Of a stretch of 64,000 nucleotides of DNA, positions 441 through 62,460 are shown in pieces. A program made the position numbers and the translations under genes. Under the pieces are notes generated by a model, which had not been told where the DNA came from, made no database searches, and saw nothing but the letters and a program-made list of their open reading frames with translations. The stretch comes from Flavobacteria bacterium BBFL7 (lineage in GTDB: Bacteria; Bacteroidota; Bacteroidia; Flavobacteriales; Flavobacteriaceae). How positions within the stretch are numbered: position 1 is the stretch's first letter; the number at the start of each line of letters is the position of its first letter. Location of the stretch: contig CH672374.1 in assembly GCA_000153385.1 (NCBI GenBank), positions 1,738,544 to 1,802,543 on the forward strand, read 5' to 3'.

Positions 441-3056
441 TTAAAGCATTTCTTTTTCATATTTATCCAGGCTTTTATATACTTGGATAATTTTATAATT
501 CTCTGTTGCTATAGGCACCGCAGTAGTAGTTACATTAAAACCATTACTAGGATTTGCCATAAAATCCCCTAATCCACGACTACCTAATTTTGAAGTTAAT
601 CCATGTACTACAATCAGGTTTTCTTGAGGATTATAAACATCTACTGATACAGTAAAGGCGTATTTTTCTTGTTCAATAGCTTTTTCTAGTTGGTTTTTGA
701 GATTTTCTATACCTTGATAGTTTGTCTTCTCAAGACGATACACCAATTTAAAATCAGATAAACCTTGTTCTGGCATGAAAGCTTCGGCAATTTTCAGTTT
801 TTCTGCTTCTAATACTAATTGCTGTGCACTTTTACCTACCTCAGTATTTGGAAAGTTAAGTGCTACAAAATCAATTCCTCTTTTATATTCTTCAAAACCA
901 TATAATCTTCCAGCTGCAAAAGCTTTCAGTAATTCTAATCTAGGCACAATAGGATCTCCATTGAATAAAGTCACATATCGCTCTACATTTGAAACAACGA
1001 TTTCATAATTGCCTTTCTCGTATTCTTTATATAGTCTTTTATACACAGCACCAGGACTAGCATTATCTTCTATTTTTGCGTCTGGATTCAATAATATCTG
1101 CGCATATCTAGTATCTGGAAACTCGTTAATGATACGACTTTTGTATATATCTGCTTTCGCGAAAGCGCCGCTCTCATTATATATAAGGTATAAGTTATAC
1201 AAACCAGGTAATAAAAGTTTTTCTGCCGGATTGAATGCGATTAGGTTCTCTAATCTGCTTATCGCTAGATCATCTCGTTTAAACTTTTCTTTATAGATAA
1301 CACCTAACTGATAGTATGCAAAATTACGTGCCTTTGCGATACTATCCAGCACACTCATTCCTTCTGGCAATTGATCAATATAGAACTCTGGAGTAAACTC
1401 TGGTCTCACTTCTTCTTCTACAAGTAGCTCATCTTCTTCTATAACAATCTCGCCACCACCATCATCTTTTTTATTCTTGCGTCTCCAGTTATTTTCTAAT
1501 TTACGTTTTCCCCATTTTCTACGGAAGTCTTGTTTTCCACGAGCCACAGTTTGTGGGTTATAGAAGTAAAAAGTAGGTGTACCTGCTATTGTAGGTGTGG
1601 TAGGTGCGCCACCTATAGGGCCAAAAGCTGGTCCAGCGTTTCCACGTTTTGTAGTCTTGCTATTTTGAACCGCTTGAAATGCATTTTGATTTTGCGCCTC
1701 TTTTAGGGCTTCCACTTCGGCTAGTTTTGCCAGTCTTTCTTCCTCTGCTTTCAACTCTGCAATATACTCGTTGTAATAGGCGATTTGTTGATCAGGAGAC
1801 ATGTCCAGCACATTAAATATACTGTCTGCACTACGACGTCTTTCCTCATATAAGATGACATCTTCCAGATTATCTCTTTTCTTTTTCACTAATCGATGCT
1901 CTGGACTACGCTCTACATAATTTACCATCGCACTGTCATAATATTTTCCTGCAGCTGCATACTGGTTTTGGTCAAAACTAATTTTCCCTAATGCACTATA
2001 GTTATTCCCACGTAAATATTGATCTGATCCACCTTTTGCCCTTAGTGATAGGTTATAATAAGTTATCGCATCATTAAGTGAATCTCTGTCTTCAAAGTAT
2101 ATCGCTTTGCGCGAGTAAATATGATCTAACCACGGACGATTTTCACGATTTTCTTCTAATTCATTCAGCGTTTCTAATAGTGCAGCTTCATTATCTATGT
2201 TAAGATCAAATAGCTTAATTTTTTCAATAAATGAATGCACATAATAGCGACGTGGCACTTTACGATGCATTTCTATTATTTGATCAAATTTTACAAAAGC
2301 ACTGTCACGCTGACCAGCTTTTGCAAATAATTGCCCAGCGATAAATTTATATCGTGCAATAGTCTCCTTATTTTTAGTAAGATTTGCTGCGCGATTCATA
2401 TAAATCAATGCACTGTCTATTTGTTCTAAATTTAGAAAAGCCTGAGAAAGTGTCGCATTTGCATTTGCTAGATCTTCGTTTTCTATTTCTTTACTTTCTT
2501 CTTTAAGTAATTTAGTAAGGTTAATGATTGCCGTTTCATTATTATCTAAGCGCATATTAGTGCGCTCACGCCATATTTTTGCCTGATTGAGTTGATCACT
2601 CTCTGGCATAAACTGTAAGATGTAATTAAAAGCTTCCAGTGCTGGTACAAATCGCTGGTCATAATACCTAGCCTTACCTAGTAATAAGTAGGCATCATCA
2701 ACTTGCGGATTAAACTCTTCTTCATTAACAAATATCGAATGCTTTTGTACCGCTTTCACCGCTTTTTCTTCGGCTCTTTCAAAGTTAGGGTTAGCTGGTT
2801 TCTGTCCTGGAAGAAAAACCTCTTGTTTTAACTGCATGCGCTCTACTGGTAAAACGTCCCAATAATTCTCGTTGTAAGTTGCCTCTAACTCATCCAGACC
2901 AGCTTGCAAGGCGAGATCACCATTATAAAGTACATTGTACTCAGTTCCTACCGCGTGAAGATTGCGGCTTATAAATGAGTTTTTTTTACGACTACAACCA
3001 GTCACTGCAACTAGTAGAAGTAAAAACGTTAAAATGTTAATAAGTGTGGTTCTCAA
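441..3056 (-). CDS. sprE: SprE/PorW, type IX secretion and gliding motility lipoprotein
   Basis: An 871-residue lipoprotein matching SprE (PorW in Porphyromonas), an outer-membrane-associated protein required for type IX secretion and, in gliders, for motility. The signal peptide ends in a lipobox with Cys21 (TGC). Tetratricopeptide-like helical repeats fill roughly residues 110-400 and 590-720. Between them lies a low-complexity, Glu/Lys-rich stretch (about 430-560). The C-terminal ~100 residues contain the conserved 'LDKYEKEML' ending. Four secreted proteins in this window carry type IX sorting domains, so the secretion partner and its clients are both present. A GCTTTCGCGAAAGC palindrome is encoded in frame as AFAKA at residues 631-635, between two TPR helices. 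Assignment rests on the lipobox, length, repeats and the bactofilin neighbour. Confidence 0.9.
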   Translation of the reverse strand: MRTTLINILTFLLLLVAVTGCSRKKNSFISRNLHAVGTEYNVLYNGDLALQAGLDELEATYNENYWDVLPVERMQLKQEVFLPGQKPANPNFERAEEKAVKAVQKHSIFVNEEEFNPQVDDAYLLLGKARYYDQRFVPALEAFNYILQFMPESDQLNQAKIWRERTNMRLDNNETAIINLTKLLKEESKEIENEDLANANATLSQAFLNLEQIDSALIYMNRAANLTKNKETIARYKFIAGQLFAKAGQRDSAFVKFDQIIEMHRKVPRRYYVHSFIEKIKLFDLNIDNEAALLETLNELEENRENRPWLDHIYSRKAIYFEDRDSLNDAITYYNLSLRAKGGSDQYLRGNNYSALGKISFDQNQYAAAGKYYDSAMVNYVERSPEHRLVKKKRDNLEDVILYEERRRSADSIFNVLDMSPDQQIAYYNEYIAELKAEEERLAKLAEVEALKEAQNQNAFQAVQNSKTTKRGNAGPAFGPIGGAPTTPTIAGTPTFYFYNPQTVARGKQDFRRKWGKRKLENNWRRKNKKDDGGGEIVIEEDELLVEEEVRPEFTPEFYIDQLPEGMSVLDSIAKARNFAYYQLGVIYKEKFKRDDLAISRLENLIAFNPAEKLLLPGLYNLYLIYNESGAFAKADIYKSRIINEFPDTRYAQILLNPDAKIEDNASPGAVYKRLYKEYEKGNYEIVVSNVERYVTLFNGDPIVPRLELLKAFAAGRLYGFEEYKRGIDFVALNFPNTEVGKSAQQLVLEAEKLKIAEAFMPEQGLSDFKLVYRLEKTNYQGIENLKNQLEKAIEQEKYAFTVSVDVYNPQENLIVVHGLTSKLGSRGLGDFMANPSNGFNVTTTAVPIATENYKIIQVYKSLDKYEKEML
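1152..1167. repeat. Dispersed palindrome, copy 1 (inside sprE)
   Basis: TGCTTTCGCGAAAGCG; the 14-base core is exact. Read on the reverse strand as Ala-Phe-Ala-Lys-Ala (residues 631-635 of SprE). No frame disruption. Confidence 0.95.
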
Positions 3057-3193
3057 AAGCTCCTTTTTTATCTAGCTATCATAACTCCTTAAACAGCATA
3101 GATATTGTGAAAGGTCGTAAAAATAAGGATTTTTTATCCCTTAACTCAGAAAATGATCAAATGGAAGTTATCAACCGATGGACAAAGACATTT

Positions 3194-3430: not shown

Positions 3431-3455
3431 GACTTCAATTTTAATGCAAAGATAA

Positions 3456-3686: not shown

Positions 3687-3688
3687 AC

Positions 3689-4432: not shown

Positions 4433-4464
4433 AATGGTTGTGTTCTTAGTGATTGTATTGGTGA

Positions 4465-4480
4465 CGCTTTCGCGAAAGCG
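4465..4480. repeat. Dispersed palindrome, copy 2 (intergenic)
   Basis: CGCTTTCGCGAAAGCG, exact and extended by a flanking T at the right end. It lies between the DUF5687 gene and its ABC ATPase, inside the presumed operon. Confidence 0.95.
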
Positions 4481-4506
4481 TATTAAAATTAATTATTGCT
4501 CTTCTC

Positions 4507-6084: not shown

Positions 6085-7128
6085 ATGGATTTTCATAAAC
6101 TCACTATACAACAAGTAACTAAGGTCACACCACAGGCTGTAGAAATTAGATTTGACATACCACAAGAACTGGTTTCAGATTTTAATTATCAATCTGGTCA
6201 GTATTTAACCTTAAAAGCAATTATAGACGGTAATGAAGTACGACGTGCATATTCACTTTCTAGTGCACCACACGAGAATCACTGGAGTGTCGTTGTTAAA
6301 GCTGTAGAAAATGGTGTGTTCTCTAACTATGCCATGACATTGCGTGCTGGAGATCAACTAGATGTAGCTGCACCAGAAGGGCTTTTTGTTCATGAAAAGT
6401 CTACTACTGCTCAAACTTATTTAGGTGTCGCTGCTGGTAGTGGTATCACACCTATTATCTCTATTATAAAAACAGTACTGGAAACAGAACCAGATAGTAA
6501 GTTTGCTCTTATTTATGGGAATCAAAGTATTTCTCAAACTATTTATTTTGAACAAATTAATGATCTTCAAGATCAATATGGCGATCGTTTTATAATACGT
6601 TATAGTTTCTCTAGAGAAGAACGTGATGGCGAACTTTTTGGTCGCGTCACAAAAGGAAACTTGAACTTTTTCTTGAAGCAGGATTGTACAGATTATGCTT
6701 TTGCAAAAGCATATTTATGTGGCCCAGAAGACATGATCACCATGACGACCGATAATCTTGTAGAAAAAGAGATTATAGCTAAAGAAAACATACACTTTGA
6801 GCTTTTTTCTACTAAAGAGAATAAAATAGAAATCACAGAAGACTCACATTTAACTGAGGTTACCGTAATCTTAGATGACGAAGAGCACACCTTCACAATG
6901 AAGCGCAGCGATAACATGCTAGATGTCATGCTTAAAAATGATATCGATGCTCCGTACAGCTGTCAGGGCGGAATTTGTAGTTCTTGTATTTGCCAAATCG
7001 AAGAAGGAAGTGCTCAAATGGCCAAAAACGCCATCCTTACAGACAGTGAGATTGCAGAAGGACTTTCTCTAGCATGTCAAGCTTACCCGACGAGTGCTAA
7101 GGTGAAAGTTAATTTTGATGAGGTGTAG
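6085..7128 (+). CDS. PaaE-like ferredoxin-NADP reductase with 2Fe-2S domain
   Basis: A 347-residue three-domain oxidoreductase. An FAD-binding barrel (about 1-105) carries the flavin motif RAYSLSS at 54-60. An NAD(P)-binding domain (about 110-235) has AGSGITPI at 117-124 and the C-terminal CGPEDM. A plant-type 2Fe-2S ferredoxin domain (about 255-347) has cluster ligands C293, C298, C301 and C331. The order matches PaaE (the phenylacetyl-CoA epoxidase reductase) and related Hcp/flavohaemoglobin-type reductases. It would pass electrons from NAD(P)H through FAD and the 2Fe-2S cluster to an oxygenase or desaturase. No paa genes are nearby, so the physiological partner is unclear; in flavobacteria such stand-alone genes often serve lipid desaturases. 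AFAKA at residues 205-209 is encoded by a palindrome variant. Confidence 0.88.
   Translation: MDFHKLTIQQVTKVTPQAVEIRFDIPQELVSDFNYQSGQYLTLKAIIDGNEVRRAYSLSSAPHENHWSVVVKAVENGVFSNYAMTLRAGDQLDVAAPEGLFVHEKSTTAQTYLGVAAGSGITPIISIIKTVLETEPDSKFALIYGNQSISQTIYFEQINDLQDQYGDRFIIRYSFSREERDGELFGRVTKGNLNFFLKQDCTDYAFAKAYLCGPEDMITMTTDNLVEKEIIAKENIHFELFSTKENKIEITEDSHLTEVTVILDDEEHTFTMKRSDNMLDVMLKNDIDAPYSCQGGICSSCICQIEEGSAQMAKNAILTDSEIAEGLSLACQAYPTSAKVKVNFDEV
6697..6710. repeat. Palindrome variant GCTTTTGCAAAAGC (inside reductase gene)
   Basis: Differs from the dispersed core by two symmetric transitions, so it remains a perfect palindrome, and it encodes the same AFAKA peptide (residues 205-209). It could be a diverged member of the family or a chance similarity. 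Confidence 0.5.
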
Positions 7129-9613: not shown

Positions 9614-10261
9614 ATGAGTGTTAAAAGACATCTTATTGATCCATCGGTAGGTAGCAAAGGTTATTTCCCCATTAATTTATCTGTTGAGAATTCATTTTGG
9701 GATAAAAATGATGTGAGTGATATCGCAGTATTTGAAAAATATCTTGCAGAAAAAAGAGATGAACATCAATCTTATGTTGCCCATGGTGGTTATCTAGAAC
9801 AACGCGCCTTATATCGCAAAAATGTTCGTTTTCAAACAGGCATCACTCGAGATGTACATATGGGAATAGATTTATGGGCTCCAGCCGGCACTAGTGTTCA
9901 TGCAGTAATGGATGGTGTGGTTCACTCTTTTGCACATAATGATGATGCTGGTAATTTCGGTCCTACCATAATTTTAGAACATGACTGGAATGGCCAGAAA
10001 ATCTACAGCCTATATGGACACTTATCCACTAGTGATATGGCAGGTTGGGAAGTTGGATTCCGCTTTCGCGAAAGCGAGAAAATAGCAACTCTGGGAACTG
10101 CACGAGAAAATGGTGGTTACTCACCACATCTACACTTTCAGGTAATGACAGATATGAGAGATTATCGTGGCGATTTTCCTGGTGTTGCTGCACAAGAAGA
10201 GTTAGCGAATTATGAAAATGTGATTCTAGATCCTAATCCGTTTATTTTCACTTCTATCTAG
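9614..10261 (+). CDS. M23 family metallopeptidase (LytM domain)
   Basis: 215 residues. The C-terminal two thirds (about 75-190) form a LytM/M23 fold with the zinc-binding signature HMGIDLWAP (His and Asp), the conserved YSLYGHLS and the HLHFQV motif. M23 enzymes cut peptide cross-links in peptidoglycan. The core histidines and aspartate are present, so it should be active rather than a pseudo-enzyme. No signal peptide is visible, which is unusual for a wall hydrolase and matches the uncharacterised 'peptidoglycan DD-metallopeptidase' proteins of this order. A palindromic repeat is read in frame as RFRES at residues 150-154, in the loop before the strand IATLG where other M23 proteins have a short KxGxxI turn. 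Confidence 0.87.
   Translation: MSVKRHLIDPSVGSKGYFPINLSVENSFWDKNDVSDIAVFEKYLAEKRDEHQSYVAHGGYLEQRALYRKNVRFQTGITRDVHMGIDLWAPAGTSVHAVMDGVVHSFAHNDDAGNFGPTIILEHDWNGQKIYSLYGHLSTSDMAGWEVGFRFRESEKIATLGTARENGGYSPHLHFQVMTDMRDYRGDFPGVAAQEELANYENVILDPNPFIFTSI
10061..10076. repeat. Dispersed palindrome, copy 3 (inside M23 peptidase gene)
   Basis: CGCTTTCGCGAAAGCG, exact; encodes Arg-Phe-Arg-Glu-Ser at residues 150-154. Confidence 0.95.
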
Positions 10262-14919: not shown

Positions 14920-15663
14920 TTGAAATGGTTGCGCTACATATTGATGCCTTTATACCGTGTATGGTTCTATATACTTATGGGAGTTCCTATCATTATACTA
15001 TTCCCCATACTGGTTGTCTTCACTATTTCAGAAAAAACTTATCATATGTTTTTTGCTATCGCTCGATTTTGGGCAGCTATAATTATTTACGGTATGGGTT
15101 TCTGGCCTATTATTAAACGTGAAGAGCCTATGCAAAAAGGGCAAAGCTATATGCTGGTAGCAAATCACACCAGCATGACAGATATTATGATCATGTTATT
15201 GGTTTCTAAAAACCCGTTTGTTTTTGTAGGGAAAGCTGAACTGGCCAAGATTCCTATTTTCGGTTTCTTTTATAAGCGCACTTGTATATTAGTAGATCGC
15301 AATAATCCCAGAAGTCGTAAAGCCGTTTTTGATAGAGCACGCGCTAGACTTTCTACTGGTGTCGGTATTTGTATTTTTCCAGAAGGTGGCGTGCCTGATG
15401 ATATGAATATTACATTAGACTCGTTTAAAGATGGCGCTTTCAGGCTTGCTATCGAGCATGAAATTCCCGTATTACCAGTCACTTTATTTGATAATAAGCA
15501 GCGCTTTCCTTTCCATTTCTTCTATGGCGGACCGGGAAAAATGCGCGCTCTTACTCATAAAGCTATTGATACTGCTGGTATGAACTTAAAGGAAGATAAA
15601 ATACGCTTTCGCGAAAGCGTGAGAACGATCATCTTATCATCTCTAGAAAATGATCTTAAATAG
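14920..15663 (+). CDS. plsC: 1-acyl-sn-glycerol-3-phosphate acyltransferase (PlsC family)
   Basis: Up to 247 residues. The enzyme transfers a second acyl chain to lysophosphatidic acid to make phosphatidic acid at the inner membrane. An N-terminal hydrophobic hairpin (about residues 10-65) precedes the acyltransferase domain with the catalytic NHTSMTD (HX4D, about 86-92), the substrate motif IFPEGG (about 153-158) and VLPVTLF. The start is uncertain: TTG at 14920 gives MKWLRYILMPLYRVW, which matches the family N-terminus, while ATG at 14944 would drop eight residues. A palindromic repeat is read in frame as IRFRESV (RFRES = 229-233) close to the C-terminus. Confidence 0.9.
   Translation: MKWLRYILMPLYRVWFYILMGVPIIILFPILVVFTISEKTYHMFFAIARFWAAIIIYGMGFWPIIKREEPMQKGQSYMLVANHTSMTDIMIMLLVSKNPFVFVGKAELAKIPIFGFFYKRTCILVDRNNPRSRKAVFDRARARLSTGVGICIFPEGGVPDDMNITLDSFKDGAFRLAIEHEIPVLPVTLFDNKQRFPFHFFYGGPGKMRALTHKAIDTAGMNLKEDKIRFRESVRTIILSSLENDLK
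15604..15619. repeat. Dispersed palindrome, copy 4 (inside plsC)
   Basis: CGCTTTCGCGAAAGCG within ATACGC...GCGTGA, exact; read as Arg-Phe-Arg-Glu-Ser (229-233). Confidence 0.95.
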
Positions 15664-19637: not shown

Positions 19638-19653
19638 CGCTTTCGCGAAAGCG
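19638..19653. repeat. Dispersed palindrome, copy 5 (between recA and adhesin A)
   Basis: CGCTTTCGCGAAAGCG within TTACGC...GCGTATA, exact. It sits 10 bp from an intrinsic terminator, as at copy 6. Confidence 0.95.
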
Positions 19654-19709: not shown

Positions 19710-22700
19710 TTACTCCTTAATAAAACGTCGTGTTACCGACGAATCACCAGTAGAAATATTCAAGATATAAACACCATTATTTAAATTTGATACATGATTT
19801 AATTCAATAACTCCATTTGAGATATTGTTGTATTTATGAGTCATAACCTTCTGACCTAGTGTATTAAACACTTGTACCTGAACATTTTCAACAGATGTAT
19901 CTCCTACATTAATTGTAAGCGTGTCACCTTCAACTGGATTAGGATAAATACTTAACTGAGAGCCAAAACTTAGGTCTTCATTGCTTAAGGTCACTATTTG
20001 GAACACTAATTCAAAACGGTTAGCATCTAGGCTTTGAGCATTATTCATATCTACTGTAAAATCTACAGCGGTAGACGTTCCCTGAACTAACTCTGTCATG
20101 GTACCCGTAAAATTATCTTTAAGATATGCTGTAAGACCTGGTAATACATCAACAGTTGCATTAATAGTATATGCTGTTGTTAAATAGTTAGTTATATTTA
20201 ATTCTAAGCTTTCATTTACAGAAGGAAGTGTTCTTCTTTCTACAGTAAGTAACTCACCTGTTGATTTTGCAATTGCCATATTAACATTGAGTCCATTAAG
20301 TTTAATTGCATCATTTGAATCTACATTAACATTATGAGCAGCATTAAAGTCTAGATAAAGACCATCACTTTCAGTTTGACCATTATTAAAACGGCTTGTT
20401 TGATAAATTTTAAGCCTTAACGCTTGTTGTAGTGGTGCAACATTAAATACGCCACCATTTGTAGTACCGTCAACTTTGTTGGACTCTGCAATTGCAACAG
20501 ATGCAGATCCACCATTATCAACAAAAAACACAGCTTGTCCAGCGTCTAAAACATTAGTCGCAACTCCTGCAGTTCCCGCAGTTCCAGACGCACTGGCATA
20601 TGGAATTGCAGAATAACCACCAAATTCTCCCAAAGCTGGATCCCAATAATACATATCTGCTCCTACTCCTGTAGCTACTATACTTTCTGTAGATAGTTTA
20701 GATTGATACGGATTTGCAAAAGCAAAGAATTCACCTGATGCGATACCTGGTGTTACAGTCATTGAACCTGTCATTAATGAACCTGAAGCCCTTAACGTAG
20801 TTTCTGTATGTGCTGGCGAAGTTGCTGCAGCAAGATCAGTCATTCTATCACCTCTTACAAATAAACGGTAATAATCACCTGCATTTAATATTTCAGTTTT
20901 TGTATTTGTAACGGTAGTCCATGATTGATTTGATGCATCCCATTTAAACATACTAACATTTCCTGTAGTAGTTTCATCATGTCCGGTTGTTGCGTTAACA
21001 GTTCCGGCAGTTCCGACTGTACCAGTTATCTGTACTCCAAAACCTGTTGCATTAACACCAGCTTCTTGCCAGCTATCATAAACACTAGGTCCTGAAACTG
21101 TAGATCCTATAAATCTGAACGCCCTATTACCAGCAGGAATATATCGTTCAACGTTTACATCACCGGTAATAGCTCCTGCATCTACCGCATCAACTCTAGC
21201 CGTACCCATTGCATTTGATACTAAAGTAATATTTCCATTTGCGTCTAATTGTCCTCCAGAAACCACGTCTAACTGTTCAGAAATAGACTGCATACCGTTC
21301 ATAGTAACATCACCTGTTGCATCTACGGTTAGATTAGTCATACTTCCTGCTCCTGTAACACTTGCTGTAGCACTACTTAAAATTACCTGGCTAACTCCTG
21401 TAATAGAACCATTGTTTACTAAATTACCTGATACTGTAATATCACCGTTATCTGCTTCTAAAGCAGCTCCAGCTTCTAGAGTCAGATTACCTACACTTAT
21501 TGCACTTGTTAAAGACGGCATCGTTCCCACTTGAACAATCATGTTATCATTTGAAGTAATGTTTCCTTCCGGTGTATTGCTCCATGCGGTTCCATTCCAG
21601 ATGTAGTCTGTAGATGGTACTGCAATTTCAAACTTCCCAACTAGAAAATCACTATCCTCCGTATCATCAACTGTTCCGTCTGAAGCAAATAATGCAAATT
21701 GAACAACCCCAGAGTAAGAAGATAAATCAATAATGTACGTCGTACCTGTAACTACTGGTTCATTAGCTGCATTCCAAGTTAATAATGATGTCCAGTTGAC
21801 ACCACCATCTGTGGTTATTAATAGATCAACCTGATCATCAGACCCAAAAGCTCCTGTATCACTACTATTATAATCGCCAGTTGATTTCCAATCTGCTAAC
21901 GCCGCTTCAATTGTTAACTCTAGACCACTTATATTGATGTCAAATTCTTCAGATATTAACCATTCCCTATCGACATCACTAAAAAGATTAATAAGGTTAG
22001 AAGCTACTATATCTCCATTTAAGTTAGTATAACTGCGCGAACCTCTCCAATCAGAAGATGTTCCGGATGGGCCATCTACAATCTCTCCAGAACCAGCTTC
22101 TCTCCAGCAATCACTAGGTAAATGAGTGGACATGTCTGCACTGTAAGGATAAGAAGTTACAGAGTCACATGCAGTCGTAAGGCTAAATGGGCCAACCCAT
22201 TCACTAAAATCACCACCACCACAATTTGCTCTTACATAATAATCGTAATCTTCAGATGCGATTAAACCAGATATACTTTGAGGATTCGTTGCAGGAGAAA
22301 CTAACGTTCCTGTTCCCTGAGTAAATCCATCGATTCCGTATTCAACTTCCCAAGAAGACTCGCCACTACCTCCAGATGTCCAACTTAAGTCGGCAGAAGA
22401 TGAAGTAATATTTGAAGCGCTTAACATCGAAGGAACTAGACAAGATGCAGGTGTTGTAAAGCTAAAAGGTCCTACCCATTCACTAAATTCTCCTCCACTA
22501 CAATTTGCTCTTACGTAGTAATCATAGTCTGCAGATTCTAAAAGGCTTGAAAGGCTATAAGGATTTGAAGTAGCCGAAACAATAGTTCCATCTGTGGTTC
22601 CCTGAGTAAATCCATCAATCCCGTATTCAATTTCCCAAGAGGACTCTCCACTACCTCCAGAGGTCCAAGTTAAATCTGCTGAAGTTGCTGTAATTCCAGT

Positions 22701-25466: not shown

Positions 25467-25633
25467 TTTGATTGGTTTATAATTAATCAAGCTATTAAGA
25501 TATATCATTTTTGTAGTTCCGTACCTACAAGCCTTAATTTTTTGTTAAAAAACACAAAACATCGCCTATCTACCTGATTTTTAATAATTCACGACTAATA
25601 CCAAGTATTAATTTTCAATTTTATTAAAACTAT

Positions 25634-26715: not shown

Positions 26716-26731
26716 CGCTTTCGCGAAAGCG
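26716..26731. repeat. Dispersed palindrome, copy 6 (between trhO and adhesin B)
   Basis: CGCTTTCGCGAAAGCG within GTACGC...GCGTAAA, exact; followed within 10 bp by the adhesin B terminator. Confidence 0.95.
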
Positions 26732-33461: not shown

Positions 33462-33477
33462 TGCTTTCGCGAAAGCG
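33462..33477. repeat. Dispersed palindrome, copy 7 (intergenic)
   Basis: TGCTTTCGCGAAAGCG, exact 14-base core, in the divergent spacer between rsmI and the DUF11 protein gene. Confidence 0.95.
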
Positions 33478-36954: not shown

Positions 36955-36970
36955 CGCTTTCGCGAAAGCG
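36955..36970. repeat. Dispersed palindrome, copy 8 (intergenic)
   Basis: CGCTTTCGCGAAAGCG within TCACGC...GCGTATA, exact; 5 bp after the stop of the DUF11 protein gene. Confidence 0.95.
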
Positions 36971-42780: not shown

Positions 42781-44943
42781 ATGAAAAAAACACTTCTCGC
42801 AGCCACTGTTCTTATGGCATTGGTGTCTTGTGAAGACAAAAAACAGGATTCAAAAAAAATGACAGTAACCTATCCTACCACTCAAAAAGTAGATCACGTA
42901 GATAATTATCACGGTACAGATGTACAAGATCCATATCGCTGGTTAGAAGACGATCGTAGTGCAGAAACAGGTGAATGGGTAAAATCTCAAAATAAGGTTA
43001 CTAATAGTTACTTAGATCAAATACGCTTTCGCGAAAGCGTGAAAAACCGTCTCACAGAACTATGGAACTATGAGAAAATAGGAGCTCCATTTATAGAAGG
43101 TGACTACTCTTATTTCTATAAAAATGATGGTTTACAGAATCAATATGTAATATACCGATTCCCTACTAACGGTAAAATGGAAGATGCAGAAGTCTTTCTA
43201 GATCCTAACCAGTTTTCTAAAGATGGTACTACCTCTCTAGGTGGTACTTCTTTTACTAAAGACGGTTCTCTATTTGCTTATGCAATTTCAGAAGGTGGAA
43301 GTGACTGGAGAAAAATTATCGTTTTAAATACTAATGATTTAACTCAAGTAGGAGATACCATAAAAGACGTGAAATTTTCTGGAATGTCTTGGAAAGGTAA
43401 TGATGGGTTCTTCTACTCTAGTTATGATAAGCCTGACGGTAGTGAGTTGAGTGCTATGACAGATCAGCATAAACTATATTATCATAAGTTAGGTACGCCC
43501 CAGAATGAAGATCAAGTAATCTTTGGTGGTACACCAGATCAAAAGTATAGATATGTCGGTGGTGGCGTTACTGATGATCAAAACTACTTAGTCATTTCTG
43601 CAAGTACATCTACTAATGGTGGTAAGATGTTTATGAAAGAATTAAATAAACCCAATGCACCACTAGTAACCGTTCTAGATAATTTTGATACCAACACTTA
43701 TTTACTACATAATGAAGGTTCTAAATTATGGTTAGTAACAGATTATAATGCACCTAATAAACGCATAGTATCAACAGATTTTTCTAACCCAACTCAAGAA
43801 AACTGGACAGATGTAATTTCAGAAACTGAAAATGTGCTGTCACCTTCTACAGGTGGTGGATACATCTTTGCAGAGTATATGGTAGATGCGGTATCTAAAA
43901 TTCAACAATATAATTATGATGGTACTCTTGTTAGAGAAGTAAAATTACCAGGAATAGGAAATGTGGGCGGTTTTGGTGCTAAAGAAAAAGATAAAACACT
44001 TTACTATAGTTTTACAAATTATACCACTCCTGGAAGCACTTACTTATATGACATCGCCACTGGTGAATCAAAGCTATATCGCAAACCAGAAATTCAATTT
44101 AATAGTGATGAGTATGAATCAAAGCAAATTTTTTATACATCTAAAGATGGGACTAAAATCCCTATGATTATTTCTCATAAGAAAGGTTTAGTACTAGATG
44201 GTAAAAACCCAACAATACTGTACGGTTATGGTGGTTTTAACGTATCACTTAATCCAAGTTTCTCAGTCTCAAGAGCTGCGTGGATGGAAATGGGCGGTAT
44301 TTATGCCGTAGCAAATTTACGAGGTGGTGGTGAATATGGTAAGAAATGGCATGACGCTGGAACTAAAATGCAAAAACAGAATGTATTTGATGATTTTATT
44401 GCTGCTGGAGAATGGTTAAAAGACAACGATTACACCTCTACAAAATACCTAGCTATCCAAGGTGGCTCTAATGGTGGTTTATTAGTAGGTGCAACGATGA
44501 CACAGCGACCAGATTTAGCTAGTGTAGCTTTCCCAGCAGTAGGTGTTTTAGATATGTTGCGATATAATAAGTTTACTGCAGGAGCAGGATGGGCTTATGA
44601 TTATGGAACTGCAGAGGATAATCCAGAAATGTTTGAATACCTTAAAGGATATTCTCCATTACATAATATTCAAGAAGGCGTTTCTTATCCAGCTACAATG
44701 GTAACTACTGGTGATCACGATGATCGTGTAGTACCTGCACACTCATTTAAATTTGCTGCCGAACTACAGTCTAAACAAGCTGGTGATGCTCCTACTCTTA
44801 TCCGTATTGAAACTGATGCTGGTCACGGCGCTGGTAAATCAACTGCTCAGGTGATACAAGAACAAACAGACATATATAGTTTTGCCTTATTCAATATGGG
44901 GTTTGAAGAACTACCAGAATTGAGTACAAGAGTAAAAATGTAA
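42781..44943 (+). CDS. Prolyl oligopeptidase family serine peptidase (S9A), lipoprotein
   Basis: 720 residues from the ATG at 42781. A lipoprotein-type signal (MKKTLLAATVLMALVSCEDKK, Cys17) puts the enzyme in the periplasm or on the outer membrane. A seven-bladed propeller (about 85-440) caps a C-terminal alpha/beta-hydrolase domain. The catalytic triad is visible: Ser in IQGGSNGGLLVG, Asp in TGDHDDRVVP and His in TDAGHGAGKS. Such enzymes cut short proline-containing peptides after Pro. A palindromic repeat is read in frame as IRFRESV (RFRES = 82-86) in the linker before the propeller. It probably shares a transcript with the upstream BNR protein. Confidence 0.94.
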   Translation: MKKTLLAATVLMALVSCEDKKQDSKKMTVTYPTTQKVDHVDNYHGTDVQDPYRWLEDDRSAETGEWVKSQNKVTNSYLDQIRFRESVKNRLTELWNYEKIGAPFIEGDYSYFYKNDGLQNQYVIYRFPTNGKMEDAEVFLDPNQFSKDGTTSLGGTSFTKDGSLFAYAISEGGSDWRKIIVLNTNDLTQVGDTIKDVKFSGMSWKGNDGFFYSSYDKPDGSELSAMTDQHKLYYHKLGTPQNEDQVIFGGTPDQKYRYVGGGVTDDQNYLVISASTSTNGGKMFMKELNKPNAPLVTVLDNFDTNTYLLHNEGSKLWLVTDYNAPNKRIVSTDFSNPTQENWTDVISETENVLSPSTGGGYIFAEYMVDAVSKIQQYNYDGTLVREVKLPGIGNVGGFGAKEKDKTLYYSFTNYTTPGSTYLYDIATGESKLYRKPEIQFNSDEYESKQIFYTSKDGTKIPMIISHKKGLVLDGKNPTILYGYGGFNVSLNPSFSVSRAAWMEMGGIYAVANLRGGGEYGKKWHDAGTKMQKQNVFDDFIAAGEWLKDNDYTSTKYLAIQGGSNGGLLVGATMTQRPDLASVAFPAVGVLDMLRYNKFTAGAGWAYDYGTAEDNPEMFEYLKGYSPLHNIQEGVSYPATMVTTGDHDDRVVPAHSFKFAAELQSKQAGDAPTLIRIETDAGHGAGKSTAQVIQEQTDIYSFALFNMGFEELPELSTRVKM
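43024..43039. repeat. Dispersed palindrome, copy 9 (inside prolyl oligopeptidase gene)
   Basis: CGCTTTCGCGAAAGCG within ATACGC...GCGTGA, exact; encodes RFRES at 82-86. Confidence 0.95.
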
Positions 44944-47747: not shown

Positions 47748-49892
47748 ATGAAAACTCTATTTTTATTACTAAGCATTACCTTTTCAATATCCAGTCTAGC
47801 ACAGACCACTATAAGCGGTCAGGTTCTAGATGAAAAAAATGTACCTGTGTTAGGAGCAAATGTTTATTTGCAAGGTACTTATGATGGTGCTACAACTGAT
47901 ATTGATGGGAAATTCTCTTTTGAAACCTCAGAGACCTCAATAGTTACCATAGTTGCCAGTTTTATAGGTTATGAGGATTATGTACAGCAATCAACAGTAA
48001 ATGAATTAAATGATATAAAAATTCGCTTTCGCGAAAGCGTAAACAGTCTCAACTCTGTGATTTTAAATGCAGGAACTTTAAATGCAGGAGATAGTTCTAA
48101 AGCGAGCGCACTTAAACCACTTGATATAGTAACCACGGCTGGCGCTGTAGGCGATTTTGTCGGTGCATTGCAAACACTTCCAGGAACGAGTGCAAACCCA
48201 GATGATGGGCGTCTGTTTGTACGTGGCGGAAGTGGTGATGAAACTCAAGTATTTATAGATAATAGTAGAGTTTTCCGCCCTTTTGTACCCGTTACTGGAA
48301 ATATACCTACACGAGGAAGGTTTTCACCTTTCTTATTTGATGGAATATCTTTTTCTACTGGAGGTTACAGTGCAGAGTATGGTGACGCTCTATCTAGTGT
48401 ATTATTATTAAATACCACTGATATACCGACAGAAGAAAAAACAGATTTACAAATTATGAGTGTAGGTGGCGGCGTGGGAAACACACAAATTTGGGGAAAG
48501 AATAGTGTAAGTGTTAATGCCAGTTATATCAACCTAGGTCCTTATAATCAATTAATACCACAAAATAATCAATTTGAAGATCCATATGAATCCATAAGTG
48601 GCGAGGCTGTTTATAGACATCAACTCGAGAAAGGTATGTTTAAAGCTTATAGCGCATATTCTTATAGCAATTTTAGCCTTATACAAGAAGACATTGATGT
48701 AGAAGATGGAATATTTTTTGCACTCAAAAATGGGAATTATTATGGTAATTTAAATTATGAGCAACGACTTGATAACAATTGGAAAATGGAAGCAGGCCTT
48801 AGTCTCGCACATGATCGTAATGATATTAATGTTGCCGGTACAGATGTGGACACTAGAGAAAACGCCTTACATGCAAAATTTAAATTGCATAAGCGTTATA
48901 ACAATTATTTTAAAATAAATTATGGCCTAGAACAATTCGTCATCAACTATAAAGAAGATGTTACTATAGATGAAAATGCTTTTGAATCATCTGTTAATTC
49001 TTCTAATTCAGGCGTTTTTACTGAGGCAGAACTTTTTCTATCTAAAGATCTTGCTTTTAAGGCTGGTGTAAGAGCAGATTATTATGGCTTAAGTAAAGAG
49101 TTACTTATCTCTCCTAGATTGAGCGCTGCCATAAGTGTATCTAAGAATTGGCAGGCTTCTCTAGCTTATGGGCAGTTCTATCAGCAGGCTCAAAATAATA
49201 TTCTTCAATATGATGAGCAACTAGCACCAGAAAGTGCAGAGCATTATATCCTTAATTTTTTATATCAAAAAGATGGTCGCATGCTACGTGCAGAGACCTA
49301 CTACAAAAACTATTCTAGCCTATTAACCTATGATACCGACAGACCACAGCCGGACAGTAGTTATGGATTAGATGGTGATGGTTATGCTACCGGATTAGAT
49401 TTATTTTGGCGTGATGAGAAAAGCATCAAAAATTTAGACTATTGGGTCAGCTATTCATTCTTGGATACAGAAAGACAATACCGCAACTTTCAAGAAACCG
49501 CGACACCTAATTTTGCGAGTGCACATAATTTCAGTGTGGTAGGTAAGTATTGGGTTGAGAATTGGAAATCACAAATAGGAGTTACATTTAACTATACTAG
49601 TGGTAGGACCTTTACTAATCCTAATCGTAATGGCTTTCTCAATGATCAAACAGGTTCGTTTCAAAGTTTAAATTTAAACTGGGCATACCTTATTGACCAA
49701 CAAAAAATCGTATTCCTATCTGTAACTAATATCTTAGGAAGAGAAAACATCTTTAATTATCAATACAGTAGTACACCTAATTCAATGGGAGATTTTAATC
49801 GTAGATCTATAGGTCAGGCTGCAGACAGATTCATTTTTGTAGGCTTCTTTTGGACGCTAGGTAGTAATGATAATCAGCTAGATAATTTATAA
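47748..49892 (+). CDS. TonB-dependent outer-membrane receptor with CarboxypepD-like domain
   Basis: 714 residues, signal peptide MKTLFLLLSITFSISSLAQ. A carboxypeptidase regulatory-like domain (about 20-95, TTISGQVLDEKNVPVLGANVYLQGTYDGATTDIDGKFSFE) is followed by a plug (about 115-230, LPGTSANPDDGRLFVRGGSGDETQVFIDN) and a beta-barrel (about 235-714, ending FVGFFWTLG). Such receptors import ligands across the outer membrane with TonB energy. No SusD partner is adjacent, so this is not a glycan SusCD pair. A palindromic repeat is read in frame as IRFRESV (RFRES = 93-97), exactly at the domain boundary between CarboxypepD-like and plug. Ligand unknown. Confidence 0.92.
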   Translation: MKTLFLLLSITFSISSLAQTTISGQVLDEKNVPVLGANVYLQGTYDGATTDIDGKFSFETSETSIVTIVASFIGYEDYVQQSTVNELNDIKIRFRESVNSLNSVILNAGTLNAGDSSKASALKPLDIVTTAGAVGDFVGALQTLPGTSANPDDGRLFVRGGSGDETQVFIDNSRVFRPFVPVTGNIPTRGRFSPFLFDGISFSTGGYSAEYGDALSSVLLLNTTDIPTEEKTDLQIMSVGGGVGNTQIWGKNSVSVNASYINLGPYNQLIPQNNQFEDPYESISGEAVYRHQLEKGMFKAYSAYSYSNFSLIQEDIDVEDGIFFALKNGNYYGNLNYEQRLDNNWKMEAGLSLAHDRNDINVAGTDVDTRENALHAKFKLHKRYNNYFKINYGLEQFVINYKEDVTIDENAFESSVNSSNSGVFTEAELFLSKDLAFKAGVRADYYGLSKELLISPRLSAAISVSKNWQASLAYGQFYQQAQNNILQYDEQLAPESAEHYILNFLYQKDGRMLRAETYYKNYSSLLTYDTDRPQPDSSYGLDGDGYATGLDLFWRDEKSIKNLDYWVSYSFLDTERQYRNFQETATPNFASAHNFSVVGKYWVENWKSQIGVTFNYTSGRTFTNPNRNGFLNDQTGSFQSLNLNWAYLIDQQKIVFLSVTNILGRENIFNYQYSSTPNSMGDFNRRSIGQAADRFIFVGFFWTLGSNDNQLDNL
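48024..48039. repeat. Dispersed palindrome, copy 10 (inside TonB receptor gene)
   Basis: CGCTTTCGCGAAAGCG within ATTCGC...GCGTAAA, exact; encodes RFRES at 93-97 in the inter-domain linker. Confidence 0.95.
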
Positions 49893-52082: not shown

Positions 52083-52098
52083 CGCTTTCGCAAAAGCG
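52083..52098. repeat. Dispersed palindrome variant, copy 12 (between accB and accC)
   Basis: CGCTTTCGCAAAAGCG: one base differs from the consensus (G to A in the centre), breaking perfect symmetry. Flanks TTACGC...GCGTATC match the extended consensus, which supports a decayed family member. Confidence 0.9.
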
Positions 52099-57301: not shown

Positions 57302-57318
57302 TCACAAAACCATTTGCT

Positions 57319-57326
57319 TACCTTTG
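57319..57326 (+). promoter_or_regulatory. -7 box TACCTTTG four bases before the rbfA ATG
   Basis: Perfect TAnnTTTG ending 4 nt before the ATG at 57331, implying a leaderless or nearly leaderless transcript. Confidence 0.5.
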
Positions 57327-57330
57327 TCGC

Positions 57331-57726
57331 ATGGAAGAAAGTAATAGACAGAAAAAAATTAGTGGTATCCTTCAAGAGGACATATCTTCTGTAATACAGG
57401 ATTATTTAAGAAAGAACACCGTTAAGAACTTGCTGGTTTCTGTAACTAAGGTTACGGTAACACCAGATTTAGGGTATGCAAAAGCATATTTATCTGTTTT
57501 TCCAGCAGACAAAGCTGCAGCCGTGGTTCAAGAAATTGTAGAAATTGGACCTGAATTGAGACATCAAGTTGCAGCAAAAGTACGTCACCAACTGCGTCGT
57601 ATGCCAGAGTTACAGTTTTTTAATGATGATTCACTTGAGTATATGGACCAGATAGATAAGGAGCTTAAAGGTCTTAATAACCCTATCGATAATCCAGACA
57701 TATTGCCGCGTAGAAAAAAATCTTAG
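57331..57726 (+). CDS. rbfA: Ribosome-binding factor A
   Basis: 131 residues with the KH-like fold of RbfA: NRQKKISGILQEDISSVIQDYLRK at the N-terminus, VTKVTVTPDLGYAKAYLSVFP (about 40-60), and VAAKVRHQLRRMPELQFFNDDSLEYMDQID. RbfA assists late 30S maturation and processing of 16S rRNA, important at low temperature. Its stop TAG overlaps the GTG start of the permease gene, so the two are coupled. Confidence 0.95.
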   Translation: MEESNRQKKISGILQEDISSVIQDYLRKNTVKNLLVSVTKVTVTPDLGYAKAYLSVFPADKAAAVVQEIVEIGPELRHQVAAKVRHQLRRMPELQFFNDDSLEYMDQIDKELKGLNNPIDNPDILPRRKKS

Positions 57727-58943
57727 TGAACTTTTCTTACTACATAGCTAGACGATATCTGGTATCTAAAAATGGCAAAAACGCCATTAACATTATTAAC
57801 ATACTTAGTTTTATTATAACTATTGTAGGCACAGCAGCTCTATTTATAGTATTATCTGGATTCTCTGGCTTAAAAAGTTTCAGTACAGAATTCAGTAGTT
57901 ATTTTGATCCTGATCTTAAAATCACTCCATTAAACGGAAAGGTTTTAGAGATTCCGCTTTCGCGAAAGCGAGACCTAGAAAATCTACCAGGAATTACAGT
58001 ATTAAGTGCTACAATTGAAGAAAAAGCCTTTTTACATTATGATGGTAAAAATGATATAGCTTACATTAAAGGCGTTGACGGTAATTATGATCAAATCATA
58101 AAAACAGACACTATACTTCTACAGGGAAACTGGCTAGGAAATAGTAATTTACAGGTTGTAGCCGGCGCTGGTATTGCTGACGAGCTTTCTCTACAAGTAG
58201 ATAATTATAGTCGGCTTTTACAAATAATGGTGCCCAAGCCAGGTAAAAATGCTATAAATGCATTGAATTACAGAGATTCTTTTAGTCAAATTGATGTGGT
58301 CGCCACAGGAACATTTAGAATTAATGAAAACCTAGATAGTAAGTATATTTTTACCACTATTACCGCTGCAAGAAAATTATTAAATTACAATGAAGATCAA
58401 GCTAGTAGTATAGAAATAAAACTGGCCCAAGATGTTGATGAGGATCAGATAAGAGAAAAAATAAAAAACTTATTTAATGTTCCTATAGTTATAAAAAACA
58501 GGCTTCAAATGAATGATGGATTATACAAAATGCTTAATTCAGAAAATCTAGCCGTTTATCTTATTTTTACTTTAGTTCTTATCATCGCATTATTTAATGT
58601 AGTGGGATCTATAATTATGATGATTTTAGATAAAAAACAAAATTTAAAAACCTTATTAGATTTAGGAGCGAGTGTTAGTTCTTTACGTAAAATCTTTTTT
58701 ATTCAAGGTAGTTTAATGACCGTAAGTGGTGGACTAATAGGTCTTTTAATAGGAGTAGTTTTTGTCTTTCTGCAAATTAAATATAGTTTGCTTTATATAG
58801 CTCCTGGACTACCCTATCCATTTGAAATGGTATTATCAAACATAATTGTTGCATTAGGTACGATAACTATTCTGGGTGTACTGGCTAGTTATATAGCATC
58901 GAGACGTATTAATGAAGGATTACTTGCTCAAGCAAAAGCTTAA
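57726..58943 (+). CDS. FtsX-like ABC permease (LolC/E family)
   Basis: 405 residues with a GTG start that overlaps the rbfA stop. N-terminal helix (about 20-45, with ARRYLVSKNGKNAINIINILSFI), a large periplasmic domain (about 50-265), then three membrane helices (about 275-300, 320-345, 370-395) and the FtsX/MacB signature loop DKKQNLKTLLDLGASVSSLRKIFFIQG. This is the LolC/LolE topology for lipoprotein release from the inner membrane; the matching LolD ATPase is not adjacent. A palindromic repeat is read in frame as LSRK (78-81) at the start of the periplasmic domain. Confidence 0.92.
   Translation: MNFSYYIARRYLVSKNGKNAINIINILSFIITIVGTAALFIVLSGFSGLKSFSTEFSSYFDPDLKITPLNGKVLEIPLSRKRDLENLPGITVLSATIEEKAFLHYDGKNDIAYIKGVDGNYDQIIKTDTILLQGNWLGNSNLQVVAGAGIADELSLQVDNYSRLLQIMVPKPGKNAINALNYRDSFSQIDVVATGTFRINENLDSKYIFTTITAARKLLNYNEDQASSIEIKLAQDVDEDQIREKIKNLFNVPIVIKNRLQMNDGLYKMLNSENLAVYLIFTLVLIIALFNVVGSIIMMILDKKQNLKTLLDLGASVSSLRKIFFIQGSLMTVSGGLIGLLIGVVFVFLQIKYSLLYIAPGLPYPFEMVLSNIIVALGTITILGVLASYIASRRINEGLLAQAKA
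57955..57970. repeat. Dispersed palindrome, copy 13 (inside permease gene)
   Basis: CGCTTTCGCGAAAGCG, exact; here in the third reading frame, giving Pro-Leu-Ser-Arg-Lys-Arg (77-82). Confidence 0.95.
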
Positions 58944-59005
58944 TAAGATTTTATATAATTACTTGAGTTTATATTAGAACATATTGATTTCCAACGATGG
59001 TGTCA

Positions 59006-59998: not shown

Positions 59999-60002
59999 TC
60001 TG

Positions 60003-60010
60003 CAAAAATA
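60003..60010 (-). promoter_or_regulatory. -7 box TATTTTTG four bases before the dusB ATG
   Basis: Reverse-strand TAnnTTTG match ending 4 nt before the ATG at 59998; a TTG-like CAA on the + strand at 60027-60029 lies about 16 bp further upstream. Confidence 0.5.
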
Positions 60011-60048
60011 AGGTATAATATAATTTCAATTGAAGAGAATTATGGGTT

Positions 60049-62460
60049 TTATAATCCCTTAGTCTTTTTACCAGTACGCTCTAATTCTTCTGAAACTTCA
60101 GGTTCGCGATTTTCTAGTCTAAAATTTCCAAATTTATAGGTGAATCCTATTGTAAACAACTGTGTTTCTGGAATCGTTAATACTCGATTATCTTGGTTTG
60201 CGTATCGTGTTATAAACGGTTGGTTTTGTGAAAGAAATATATCACTGTATTTTGCTGTAACTATAGCTCTATCATTCCATAATCTCTTTGAGAATCCTAT
60301 ACTACTAGCTAGCATATTCTCATATTTATAGGACCCAAATAATATACTTGAAATATAATCTGCTTCAACAAGCATATTTAAAGTCCCATCCTTAGATAGT
60401 TCAAATAAATTTTGTGTTTGTATATATAATCCTGTAGTATTTAATTGTTGATTACTACTTGCTGACTGTAATGTTTCAAATTCATTTTCCATATAAAATG
60501 CACTTACACTGGTTAATGAAGTCCATTTTTCATTAGGGTATTTAATAAGTGTGGCATCTATACTATATTGATATTCATAATTCAGATTTGCACTTTGAAT
60601 AGTCAATACATTAGTATCATTATTTTGAAAAGGTAAATTGTCCAATATACCTTTAGTATATATATAATACGCATCTACAAATAACTCATAATTATGTGTC
60701 CATCCCAGTGTAATTTTATTAGTAAAAGCTGGTTGCAAATTAGGATTACCAGATTCTATATTATTATCATTAATAAAATTATTAAACGGGTTTAAATCAC
60801 CATATCTAGGTCTATCAATAGATCGCTTATAACTCAATGATAAATCGTTACCTTCATTAAGACTGTGTGTAATCGATAGATTTGGGAAGAAACCTAAATA
60901 ATTTTGAGAATTGACAATTCCTAACGATTCACTATCTCCTACTACATCTGTTTGCTCTAATCGTATACCACCAGCAAATGACCATTTAGACCATTCTCTT
61001 TCTAGTTGAGCATAGGCCGCATAAATACGCTCGTCATATAAATAATTATCAGATAGTGATGGGTCTATATCGCTACCTGTATTGGTATCAAAAAAATCTT
61101 GTTTGCTTTGTGATGAAATATCAGAATATTTTAATCCAGCAGATAGTGAATAAGCACCAAACTGATTAAGATAATCTGCTTTTGCAGTAAATATATTTAT
61201 ATCTTGAAAACCTACGGTATTAAAGCTATTTGTACCTGTTGTAGTTTGTGTGTCATCAAAAAAAGTACTGAAAAATTCTTGATCATTATCTACATCTGTA
61301 AAAAAGTAACTTCCTTCCATACTCAAAGAACCACCATTCTCATTCAATATACTATTCCATCCCATATTTAAGGAACCTATAGTTGCATCGCGTCCCATAT
61401 TAGAATCTGTATCAAAACCACTGAAAGAAGTAGCACCTTGTGGTAAAATCAATGTGTTGACATCTGACTCTACCTCGCGGCCATTATCAAGACCTAAATA
61501 ACCTAAGATAGATAAGCTGTTTTTATCATTAAGACTTATATCTATGATTGTATTAAAAGCATGTGACTGACTGCGAGACACACTATTTGCGTCTGTAAAC
61601 CAGCGAGAGCTTCTTGTTCCATCACTATTAAAAAAACCAACTTGAGATTCTTCTAGTGTTAAATCTTTACGAGGATTATGGTTATAGTTTGCATAGACAT
61701 TCAACCAGTCATTCTTATAATATTGACTAGTACCAATGTTATATTTTGCAAATGTGTCAATCTCATACTTGCCAGTAATAGATCCTTTATAACCTAAAGA
61801 AACATTTTTACTAGTTACAATATTTATAACGGCTCCACCATCTGCATCGTACTGTGCAGGAGGATTATAAATAACCTCAACACTTTTTACATTCTCACCA
61901 CTGTAACCACTTAACAATTGTTCTAATTCTTCATTAGTCAGGTAAACACGCTTGTCATTTATGTAAACTTGAGCAACACTACCTTTTACCGTGTAAGAAC
62001 CATTCATTTCAAAAACACCTGGTGTAGATTGTAAAATCTGTGATGCGTTTCCAGTACTCAGTGACGTATTTTCAACATTAAATATAAGTCGATCTGCTCT
62101 ACGCTCTACAGTTGGTTTTTCAGCAATTAACATCACTGCATCTAGTTGTGCTGCATCGGTTTCTAGTTGTAGATTATTAAGGGCAGTATCATTTTGTAGA
62201 GTCAGCTTTCGCGAAAGCGTAACATAACCAACAAATGAAGCCTTAAAATCATAATCACCAACTATTACATTTGAAAAAGTAAAAATTCCAGCCTCATTTG
62301 AAGAGGTTCCATATTTAAAAGTTCCATCTTCAATATCTTGTAACACAAGATTTGCAAACGCAATAGGTGCTCCATCGGAATCAATAAGGTTTCCTGTAAG
62401 ATTAATTTGAGCAAACGTACTTAAGGAAGTGAATAGTAATAAAATGGATATCAGTTTCAT
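60049..62460 (-). CDS. TonB-dependent receptor, outer-membrane beta-barrel family 3 type
   Basis: 803 residues, signal peptide MKLISILLLFTSLSTFAQ. CarboxypepD regulatory-like domain (about 20-105, NLTGNLIDSDGAPIAFANLVLQDIEDGTFKYGTSSNEAGIFTF), a plug (about 125-220, STGNASQILQSTPGVFEMNGSYTVKGSVAQVYINDKRVYLTNEELEQLL...NPPAQYDADGGAVINIVT) and a long beta-barrel to the end (TIGFTYKFGNFRLEN). This family is common in Bacteroidota and is not linked to SusD. A palindromic repeat is read as LSRK (82-85) inside the CarboxypepD-like domain. Its Arg-rich tail is short. Ligand unknown; it stands alone between dusB and lepA. Confidence 0.92.
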   Translation of the reverse strand: MKLISILLLFTSLSTFAQINLTGNLIDSDGAPIAFANLVLQDIEDGTFKYGTSSNEAGIFTFSNVIVGDYDFKASFVGYVTLSRKLTLQNDTALNNLQLETDAAQLDAVMLIAEKPTVERRADRLIFNVENTSLSTGNASQILQSTPGVFEMNGSYTVKGSVAQVYINDKRVYLTNEELEQLLSGYSGENVKSVEVIYNPPAQYDADGGAVINIVTSKNVSLGYKGSITGKYEIDTFAKYNIGTSQYYKNDWLNVYANYNHNPRKDLTLEESQVGFFNSDGTRSSRWFTDANSVSRSQSHAFNTIIDISLNDKNSLSILGYLGLDNGREVESDVNTLILPQGATSFSGFDTDSNMGRDATIGSLNMGWNSILNENGGSLSMEGSYFFTDVDNDQEFFSTFFDDTQTTTGTNSFNTVGFQDINIFTAKADYLNQFGAYSLSAGLKYSDISSQSKQDFFDTNTGSDIDPSLSDNYLYDERIYAAYAQLEREWSKWSFAGGIRLEQTDVVGDSESLGIVNSQNYLGFFPNLSITHSLNEGNDLSLSYKRSIDRPRYGDLNPFNNFINDNNIESGNPNLQPAFTNKITLGWTHNYELFVDAYYIYTKGILDNLPFQNNDTNVLTIQSANLNYEYQYSIDATLIKYPNEKWTSLTSVSAFYMENEFETLQSASSNQQLNTTGLYIQTQNLFELSKDGTLNMLVEADYISSILFGSYKYENMLASSIGFSKRLWNDRAIVTAKYSDIFLSQNQPFITRYANQDNRVLTIPETQLFTIGFTYKFGNFRLENREPEVSEELERTGKKTKGL
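62204..62219. repeat. Dispersed palindrome, copy 14 (inside second TonB receptor gene)
   Basis: AGCTTTCGCGAAAGCG, exact 14-base core; reverse-strand reading gives Thr-Leu-Ser-Arg-Lys (81-85). Confidence 0.95.

Follow-up and report, generated by a model that had tools for sequence, protein, structure and literature searches.

The window analyzed here, a 64,000-nucleotide stretch of the genome of Flavobacteria bacterium BBFL7 (contig CH672374.1, positions 1,738,544 to 1,802,543), contains 13 exact copies of GCTTTCGCGAAAGC, a perfect 14-bp palindrome, all of them where the first-pass annotation of this DNA had placed them. One hundred dinucleotide shuffles of the window contain no copy. The host genome (G000) belongs to the genus Nonlabens of the family Flavobacteriaceae, and we propose, with a confidence falling just short of even, that GCTTTCGCGAAAGC (in its extended form TACGCTTTCGCGAAAGCGTA) constitutes a genome-wide array of sites for one putative sequence-specific protein; the two-fold symmetry of the site makes a homodimer most likely. 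The abundance and exactness of the motif, the mutual avoidance of its copies, their conservation at the DNA level, a replacement of codons in place in lolE, and the occurrence in three genera (weaker in one of them) were computed directly, and a genuine family under strong DNA-level selection is supported.

An Abundant and Sharply Defined Palindrome

Counts near expectation would have told against the family proposed in the first-pass annotation, but those in the host genome are far from it: 551 exact copies occur in 3,103,424 bases, and a reversed-string control yields none. Allowing up to two mismatches lifts the count only to 691 (reversed control 16), and the motif is therefore sharp. A 453-kb sample of G000 contains 71 exact, 18 one-mismatch and 8 two-mismatch copies (reversed control 0, 0 and 1); the single changes fall on the fifth base of the half-site in 10 of the 18, on the sixth base in 6 (all C to T) and on the outer base in 2. 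Across four genomes, 2 of 38 two-mismatch copies are still palindromic. The flanks favor G, T and A on the outside (91, 76 and 65% in G000), more strongly at intergenic copies. The full 20-mer TACGCTTTCGCGAAAGCGTA, put forward earlier as an extended consensus, was read by eye at 3 of the 13 window copies (19639, 26717 and 49945); this extension is a tendency, and the unit is the 14-mer.

Spacing and Placement

Copies of the motif avoid one another at short range. Sampled DNA from G000 (453 kb), from the Nonlabens genome G022 (400 kb) and from G250 (220 kb), a motif-rich genome of another genus, contains no gap below 1 kb, where 9.8, 16.0 and 11.8, respectively, were expected. Over the first 100 sites of G000 contig C1 the coefficient of variation (CV) of the gaps is 0.58 versus 0.98 for random placement, none of 20,000 simulations being as low, and 7 gaps are shorter than 2 kb versus 31 expected. 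An average of roughly one copy per 4–5 kb had been claimed for the window; the array is more regular than that description implied. Gaps below a third of the mean number 4 on contig C4 of G003, versus 16.8 expected, and there are none in the 0–150 kb region of G000 contig C2. On three short contigs of G018 the gap CV ranges from 0.19 to 0.40.

Within the window, where genes were called by a simple open reading frame (ORF) caller script, 7 of the 13 copies lie in genes and 6 between them. By simple-script gene calls, genic copies number 38 of 71 in the G000 sample, 49 of 90 in G022, 26 of 58 in G250 and 30 of 33 in G234 (320 kb sampled), which represents a third motif-rich genus, and the ratio of intergenic to genic density is 7.6, 6.8, 7.7 and 0.8, respectively. 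Genic sites occupy all three reading frames, unequally, and the intergenic sites of G000 (25 in tandem, 4 in divergent and 3 in convergent gaps) are distributed roughly as such gaps are available. With parB as a proxy for the origin, there is no significant origin-to-terminus trend in density in the small samples analyzed, 20 stretches of G022 (rho 0.34, p = 0.14) and 16 of G234 (rho -0.16, p = 0.56). In G000, density falls where GC content is low (rho 0.49, p = 0.024), a relationship that is not significant in G022, G234 or G250.

Conservation and the lolE Site

Conservation was investigated in the lolE region of 23 Nonlabens genomes. In 751 alignable site-by-pair comparisons, which cover sites in alignable DNA, are not independent and include 434 at the lolE site itself, sites outlast their surroundings: at 60–72% aligned identity 86% of sites are intact (331 comparisons), versus 2% of local 14-mers. 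Because the pair comparisons are not independent and the lolE site dominates them, sites were also counted by orthologous place, and in 18 of 18 groups the site is conserved above neighboring 14-mers (mean 0.83 versus 0.10), in agreement with the selection that had been suggested from the window.

LolE from the window and LolE from Nonlabens ulvanivorans share 89% identity. In the lolE gene the motif encodes PLSRK(R) in a loop that is variable among other genera, and it replaces codons without a gap in the columns displayed for 17 aligned outgroup proteins (from 17 of 18 outgroup loci, one being left out). The codons CTT-TCG-CGA-AAG are fixed in 20 of the 23 Nonlabens genomes. The exceptions are G008 (L203), in which PLSRKK is encoded by other codons and the motif is absent, G020, with two changed codons, and G022, with an unrelated loop. 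Since G008 makes PLSRKK from other codons without the motif, the LolE protein itself has no need of the codons that form it. In G234 the same loop bears the motif two bases away (a shift taken from coordinates), in another frame, where it encodes AFAKA. A second protein, with 38% identity between G000 and G234, has TLSRK with the motif in the same linker of both.

Genic sites of G000 with a best-match orthologue have the motif at the same place in 5 of 9 cases in G022, 2 of 4 in G234 and 0 of 7 in G250, which suggests that some sites are old or recurrent and that others differ between genera. The in-place codon change and the conserved positions argue that new sites would arise by substitution in permissive spots, namely intergenic gaps and variable protein loops.

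Distribution of the Motif

All 23 Nonlabens genomes searched are motif-rich, with 288 to 857 copies each, and 35 of the 36 genomes from other genera in the same search are without copies; the remaining one, G033, has 6, all on one contig. Among 397 Flavobacteriaceae genomes, 80 have at least one match: four Nonlabens, 74 genomes with 1 to 19 copies, and G234 (408 copies) and G250 (857 copies), which represent the only two further saturated genera. A strong excess in one genus, as the first-pass annotation had envisaged, is thus found in Nonlabens, but G234 and G250 share it. Of 395 genomes from across the phylum, 22 have a match, and apart from the window's own genome none has more than 6. In a LolE tree of 22 rows, a single-gene phylogeny, G234 groups with G250 (support 95/91) and Nonlabens lies elsewhere, so that the motif-rich label needs two changes.

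The few copies followed in motif-poor genera, from G033 (contig C18, L052–L055) and six further stretches (L286–L291), lie on mutually related DNA, approximately 64–96% alike, that recurs in several such genera. In G033, where genes were named by Pfam, the motif-bearing stretches have genes of metal-efflux type, with RND efflux, outer-membrane efflux, multicopper-oxidase, P-type ATPase and Fur-like members. A pair of motifs 933 bp apart recurs in G122, G131, G145, G204 and G259. These copies look transferred, with motif-rich hosts as the probable source. An analogous palindrome was not found in other genera: with two-letter palindromes left out, every 12-bp palindrome occurs at most twice per sample in 34 samples of 3.6–21 kb, 4 of which are the G033 C18 stretches that bear the motif itself.

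Individual Sites and Neighboring Genes

The sites of the window are as follows; an exact copy is one of the full 14-bp palindrome, and loci named with L are compared loci.

1153..1166, exact copy, within a porW/sprE-like gene on the - strand (called 441-3005)
4466..4479, exact copy, between genes
6697..6710, variant GCTTTTGCAAAAGC with two symmetric mismatches, within a reductase-like gene (6085-7128)
9021, three-mismatch copy
10062..10075, exact copy, within a peptidoglycan-peptidase-like gene (9614-10261)
15605..15618, exact copy, in an acyltransferase-like gene, close to its 3' end
19639..19652, exact copy with the 20-bp extension complete, between genes, adjoining recA
26717..26730, exact copy with the 20-bp extension complete, between convergent genes
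33463..33476, exact copy, 5' of the called start (33602) of a gene for a protein sorted by the type IX secretion system (T9SS), within the longest ORF (start 33461)
36956..36969, exact copy, between convergent genes, with a stop codon 6 bp before
43025..43038, exact copy, within an oligopeptidase B-like gene
48025..48038, exact copy, within a TonB-receptor-like gene; at the same codon position in L009, L012 and L188
49945..49958, exact copy with the 20-bp extension complete, between genes; a corresponding site is present in L009, L010 and L012
52084..52097, one-mismatch variant, between accC and biotin-carrier genes; exact there in L009, L012, L188 and L204
57956..57969, exact copy, starting at codon 77 of a lolE-like gene (57726-58943); likewise exact in 20 of 23 Nonlabens
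62205..62218, exact copy, at residue 81 of an outer-membrane beta-barrel gene on the - strand (60049-62460); present in 12 of 23 compared loci

The two variants at 52084 and 6697 had been recognized in the first-pass annotation, and the latter may be a decayed or weak site. The window encodes both dprA and recA. On either side of a trhO-like gene near recA lie genes for very large proteins with fn3 domains and T9SS sorting tails (19710-25508 and 26788-32622).

Candidate Reader Proteins

The presence of candidate reader families was compared across 11 motif-rich and 11 motif-poor genomes (13 motif-poor for DUF5689). A single ParB_N match is found in 10 of the 11 motif-rich genomes, and G014 has a second, in a 616-aa frame. 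The PF00145 (C5) methyltransferase is absent from 3 of the 11 and the PF01555 methyltransferase from 5, G009 being without both. The Y1 transposase (Y1_Tnp) of the REP-associated tyrosine transposase (RAYT) type is absent from 4 (G003, G008, G022 and G234). DUF5689, a candidate competence protein taken from work on Riemerella (PMC8459023, excerpt), is present in 24 of 24 panel genomes, motif-rich or not, and its tree, built from the best match per genome taken as is, rejects the motif-rich genomes as one clade (approximately unbiased test, p-AU 7.6e-10; two long branches). The DUF5689 protein of G022 (L303) groups with other genera, apart from the eight further Nonlabens examined, which suggests that a putative competence surface gene was replaced in that genome. 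Close site pairs, considered as a sign of an autoregulated reader gene, led to three loci (L247–L249) with genes that look ordinary by eye.

Phages and Viral Contigs

Two related lytic Nonlabens phages (L205 and L206, approximately 35.7 kb each) have no copy of the motif, even with as many as two mismatches allowed, and TCGCGA is absent from them as well. Each has an annotated DNA methyltransferase gene. A scan of viral contigs returned at least 120 matching stretches; among the 120 listed, 21 have at least two copies or the C..G extension, and we take most of the remaining listed stretches to be chance matches. The 20-mer TACGCTTTCGCGAAAGCGTA is found in one viral contig. The contig L119 has 3 copies in 11.3 kb, within a viral gene block with head-maturation protease and endolysin matches; it looks like a prophage and, on our reading of the contig name, derives from an isolate. 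Viral contig 3300040781_000495 (L130 and L187) has three copies, and L169, which shares two of its flanks, has two. The GC content of L169 and L187 is near 0.47, like that of G234.

A Putative Reader and Its Task

We infer a dimeric reader protein whose first-choice task would be the maintenance or organization of the chromosome, with the palindrome serving around its whole length as a site for loading, bridging or the control of repair. Selection would keep roughly one exact site per 4–9 kb in Nonlabens, depending on the genome, and each site would serve a territory of a few kilobases, so that a second site within 1 kb would rarely be kept. A mark for the uptake of self-DNA is a close second and likewise fits; we lean toward the organizing or maintenance role because of the perfect symmetry and sparse spacing of the sites.

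The Noc-binding sites (NBS) of Noc, the SlmA sites and the matS sites of MatP are palindromic sites for dimeric proteins that are spread over the chromosome. The present motif differs in having many more copies than are known for those sites and, relative to NBS and matS, in showing no origin-to-terminus bias in G022 or G234 and in that no extra ParB paralogue is common to the motif-rich genomes. Chi is similarly frequent and genome-wide, both in and between genes; it is short, asymmetric and oriented, whereas the motif here is a 14-bp palindrome.

Several observations weigh against the proposed array of reader sites. None of the five candidate families (ParB_N, PF00145, PF01555, Y1 transposase and DUF5689) tracks the motif, dimeric binding is predicted from the symmetry of the site, and organizing, repair and uptake roles all fit the data alike. 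Avoidance between copies is not absolute: one of 99 gaps on G000 contig C1 measures 489 bp, four of the 60 gaps listed on contig C4 of G003 are below 1 kb (270, 768, 952 and 996 bp), and the 0–150 kb region of G000 contig C2 has a gap CV of 0.78, indistinguishable from random. In G234 the motif is looser (33 exact versus 21 one-mismatch copies), with 30 of the 33 exact copies in genes and only 3 between them, and its 18 gaps include 1 below 1 kb versus 2.5 expected, which is not significant. The system of G234 may be decaying or under weaker selection.

Alternative Explanations

A live, if unlikely, alternative is a signal of the DNA uptake type. Competent cells would favor conspecific fragments bearing the palindrome in uptake or recombination, and molecular drive together with selection would lead it to accumulate where the core genome is permissive, at approximately one copy for each length of a conversion fragment. 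The DNA uptake sequences (DUS) of Neisseriaceae and the uptake signal sequences (USS) of Pasteurellaceae are comparable in being exact, over-represented, evenly spaced, enriched in intergenic or permissive DNA and conserved (PMC1939737 and PMC2397512, excerpts), a likeness that is weaker in G234, with its many one-mismatch copies, its non-significant spacing and its density ratio of 0.8. The spacing of Neisseria DUS matches conversion fragments, and DUS are themselves conserved, occupy permissive regions and seldom occur in DNA that has been transferred (PMC2397512); even spacing of uptake sequences is also reported in the excerpt of PMC1939737, citing Karlin. Flavobacteriaceae include naturally competent species, among which Riemerella columbina prefers its own DNA (PMC7965970, excerpt), and the dprA and recA genes of the window, the DUF5689 gene of every panel genome and the lower density in low-GC stretches of G000 point in the same direction. 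However, that link with GC is significant in only one of four genomes, and the DUF5689 tree, which has long branches, rejects a single clade of motif-rich genomes and places the G022 protein outside the other Nonlabens. DUS and USS are not palindromes and are less evenly spaced than compaction sites should be, according to the author's discussion in PMC1939737, and the USS of H. influenzae occur at about 1 per kb (PMC7811141, excerpt), versus 1 per 4–9 kb for the motif here. The k-mer table for Riemerella (k up to 10) in the excerpt of PMC7965970 holds A/T-rich words only, and competence in Nonlabens is only putative.

Less probable still is that the motif arises incidentally from the action of a methyltransferase and biased mismatch repair, the origin proposed for the cyanobacterial highly iterated palindrome HIP1 (GCGATCGC). 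Like HIP1 and the alternative cyanobacterial HIPs, the motif is a perfect palindrome iterated genome-wide, and under Elhai's model copies would saturate at a fixed distance (PMC4390886, excerpt). The C-to-T change at the sixth base accounts for 6 of 18 near-misses in G000 and 2 of 10 in G250, but for 0 of 11 in G022 and 0 of 21 in G234. HIP1 is 8 bp long and occurs approximately once per kb (PMC4390886), whereas the conserved unit here is 14 bp long and far sparser. Neither of the two methyltransferase families examined, PF00145 and PF01555, is common to the motif-rich genomes, and the methyltransferase site that had been among the roles first suggested is not supported for these two families.

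That the motif is a small mobile palindrome of the repetitive extragenic palindromic (REP) type, spread by a transposase, is very improbable, and the first-pass suggestion of a minimal mobile element is not upheld. REP elements are likewise palindromic and present in high copy, and the motif occurs in several genera. Against this, the lolE motif stands in place of codons without an insertion or deletion relative to the outgroup proteins (insertion was tested closely only at lolE), which argues against a mobile palindrome, about half of the copies are genic, copies avoid one another and keep conserved positions, and 4 of the 11 motif-rich genomes have no RAYT. It is scarcely credible that the motif is a transcription terminator, a regulator operator or an RNA element: a single strand of the 20-mer can fold into an 8-bp stem, but the sites lie in genes in all three frames as well as between genes, as the first-pass annotation had argued in setting aside a simple terminator or operator, the intergenic sites of G000 follow the available gap orientations, the near-miss copies reveal no co-varying stem, and a tRNA is the sole Rfam family in the window.

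Significance of the Array

The 14-mer string had no match in the literature searched, and the 10-mer string returned only unrelated-looking titles. Among the matches listed, the literature on iterated palindromes and that on Nonlabens palindromes, repeats, motifs, methylation, competence and nucleoid, a search that left subscription papers mostly outside, gives no account of the motif, in line with the first-pass impression that it had not been described.

Few short genome-wide signals are known; of these, Chi, DUS, matS and NBS exposed a core process, and HIP1 is a long-standing puzzle. An array of sites for a putative reader would, by our estimate an evenly balanced prospect, constitute a new kind of chromosome-wide signal in the Bacteroidota: a selected, spaced, long palindrome with its putative reader, present in at least three genera that do not form one clade in the single-gene tree, in which reader and signal may be gained or mostly lost as a unit. 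The signal is unusually clean, being exact over 14 bp and present in hundreds of copies, with mutual avoidance at short range and fixation at the level of codons. Natural comparisons are at hand in the motif-free genera, in the weaker genus of G234 and in the changed lolE loop of G008, and the question of what keeps genome-wide signals becomes testable in a marine genus.

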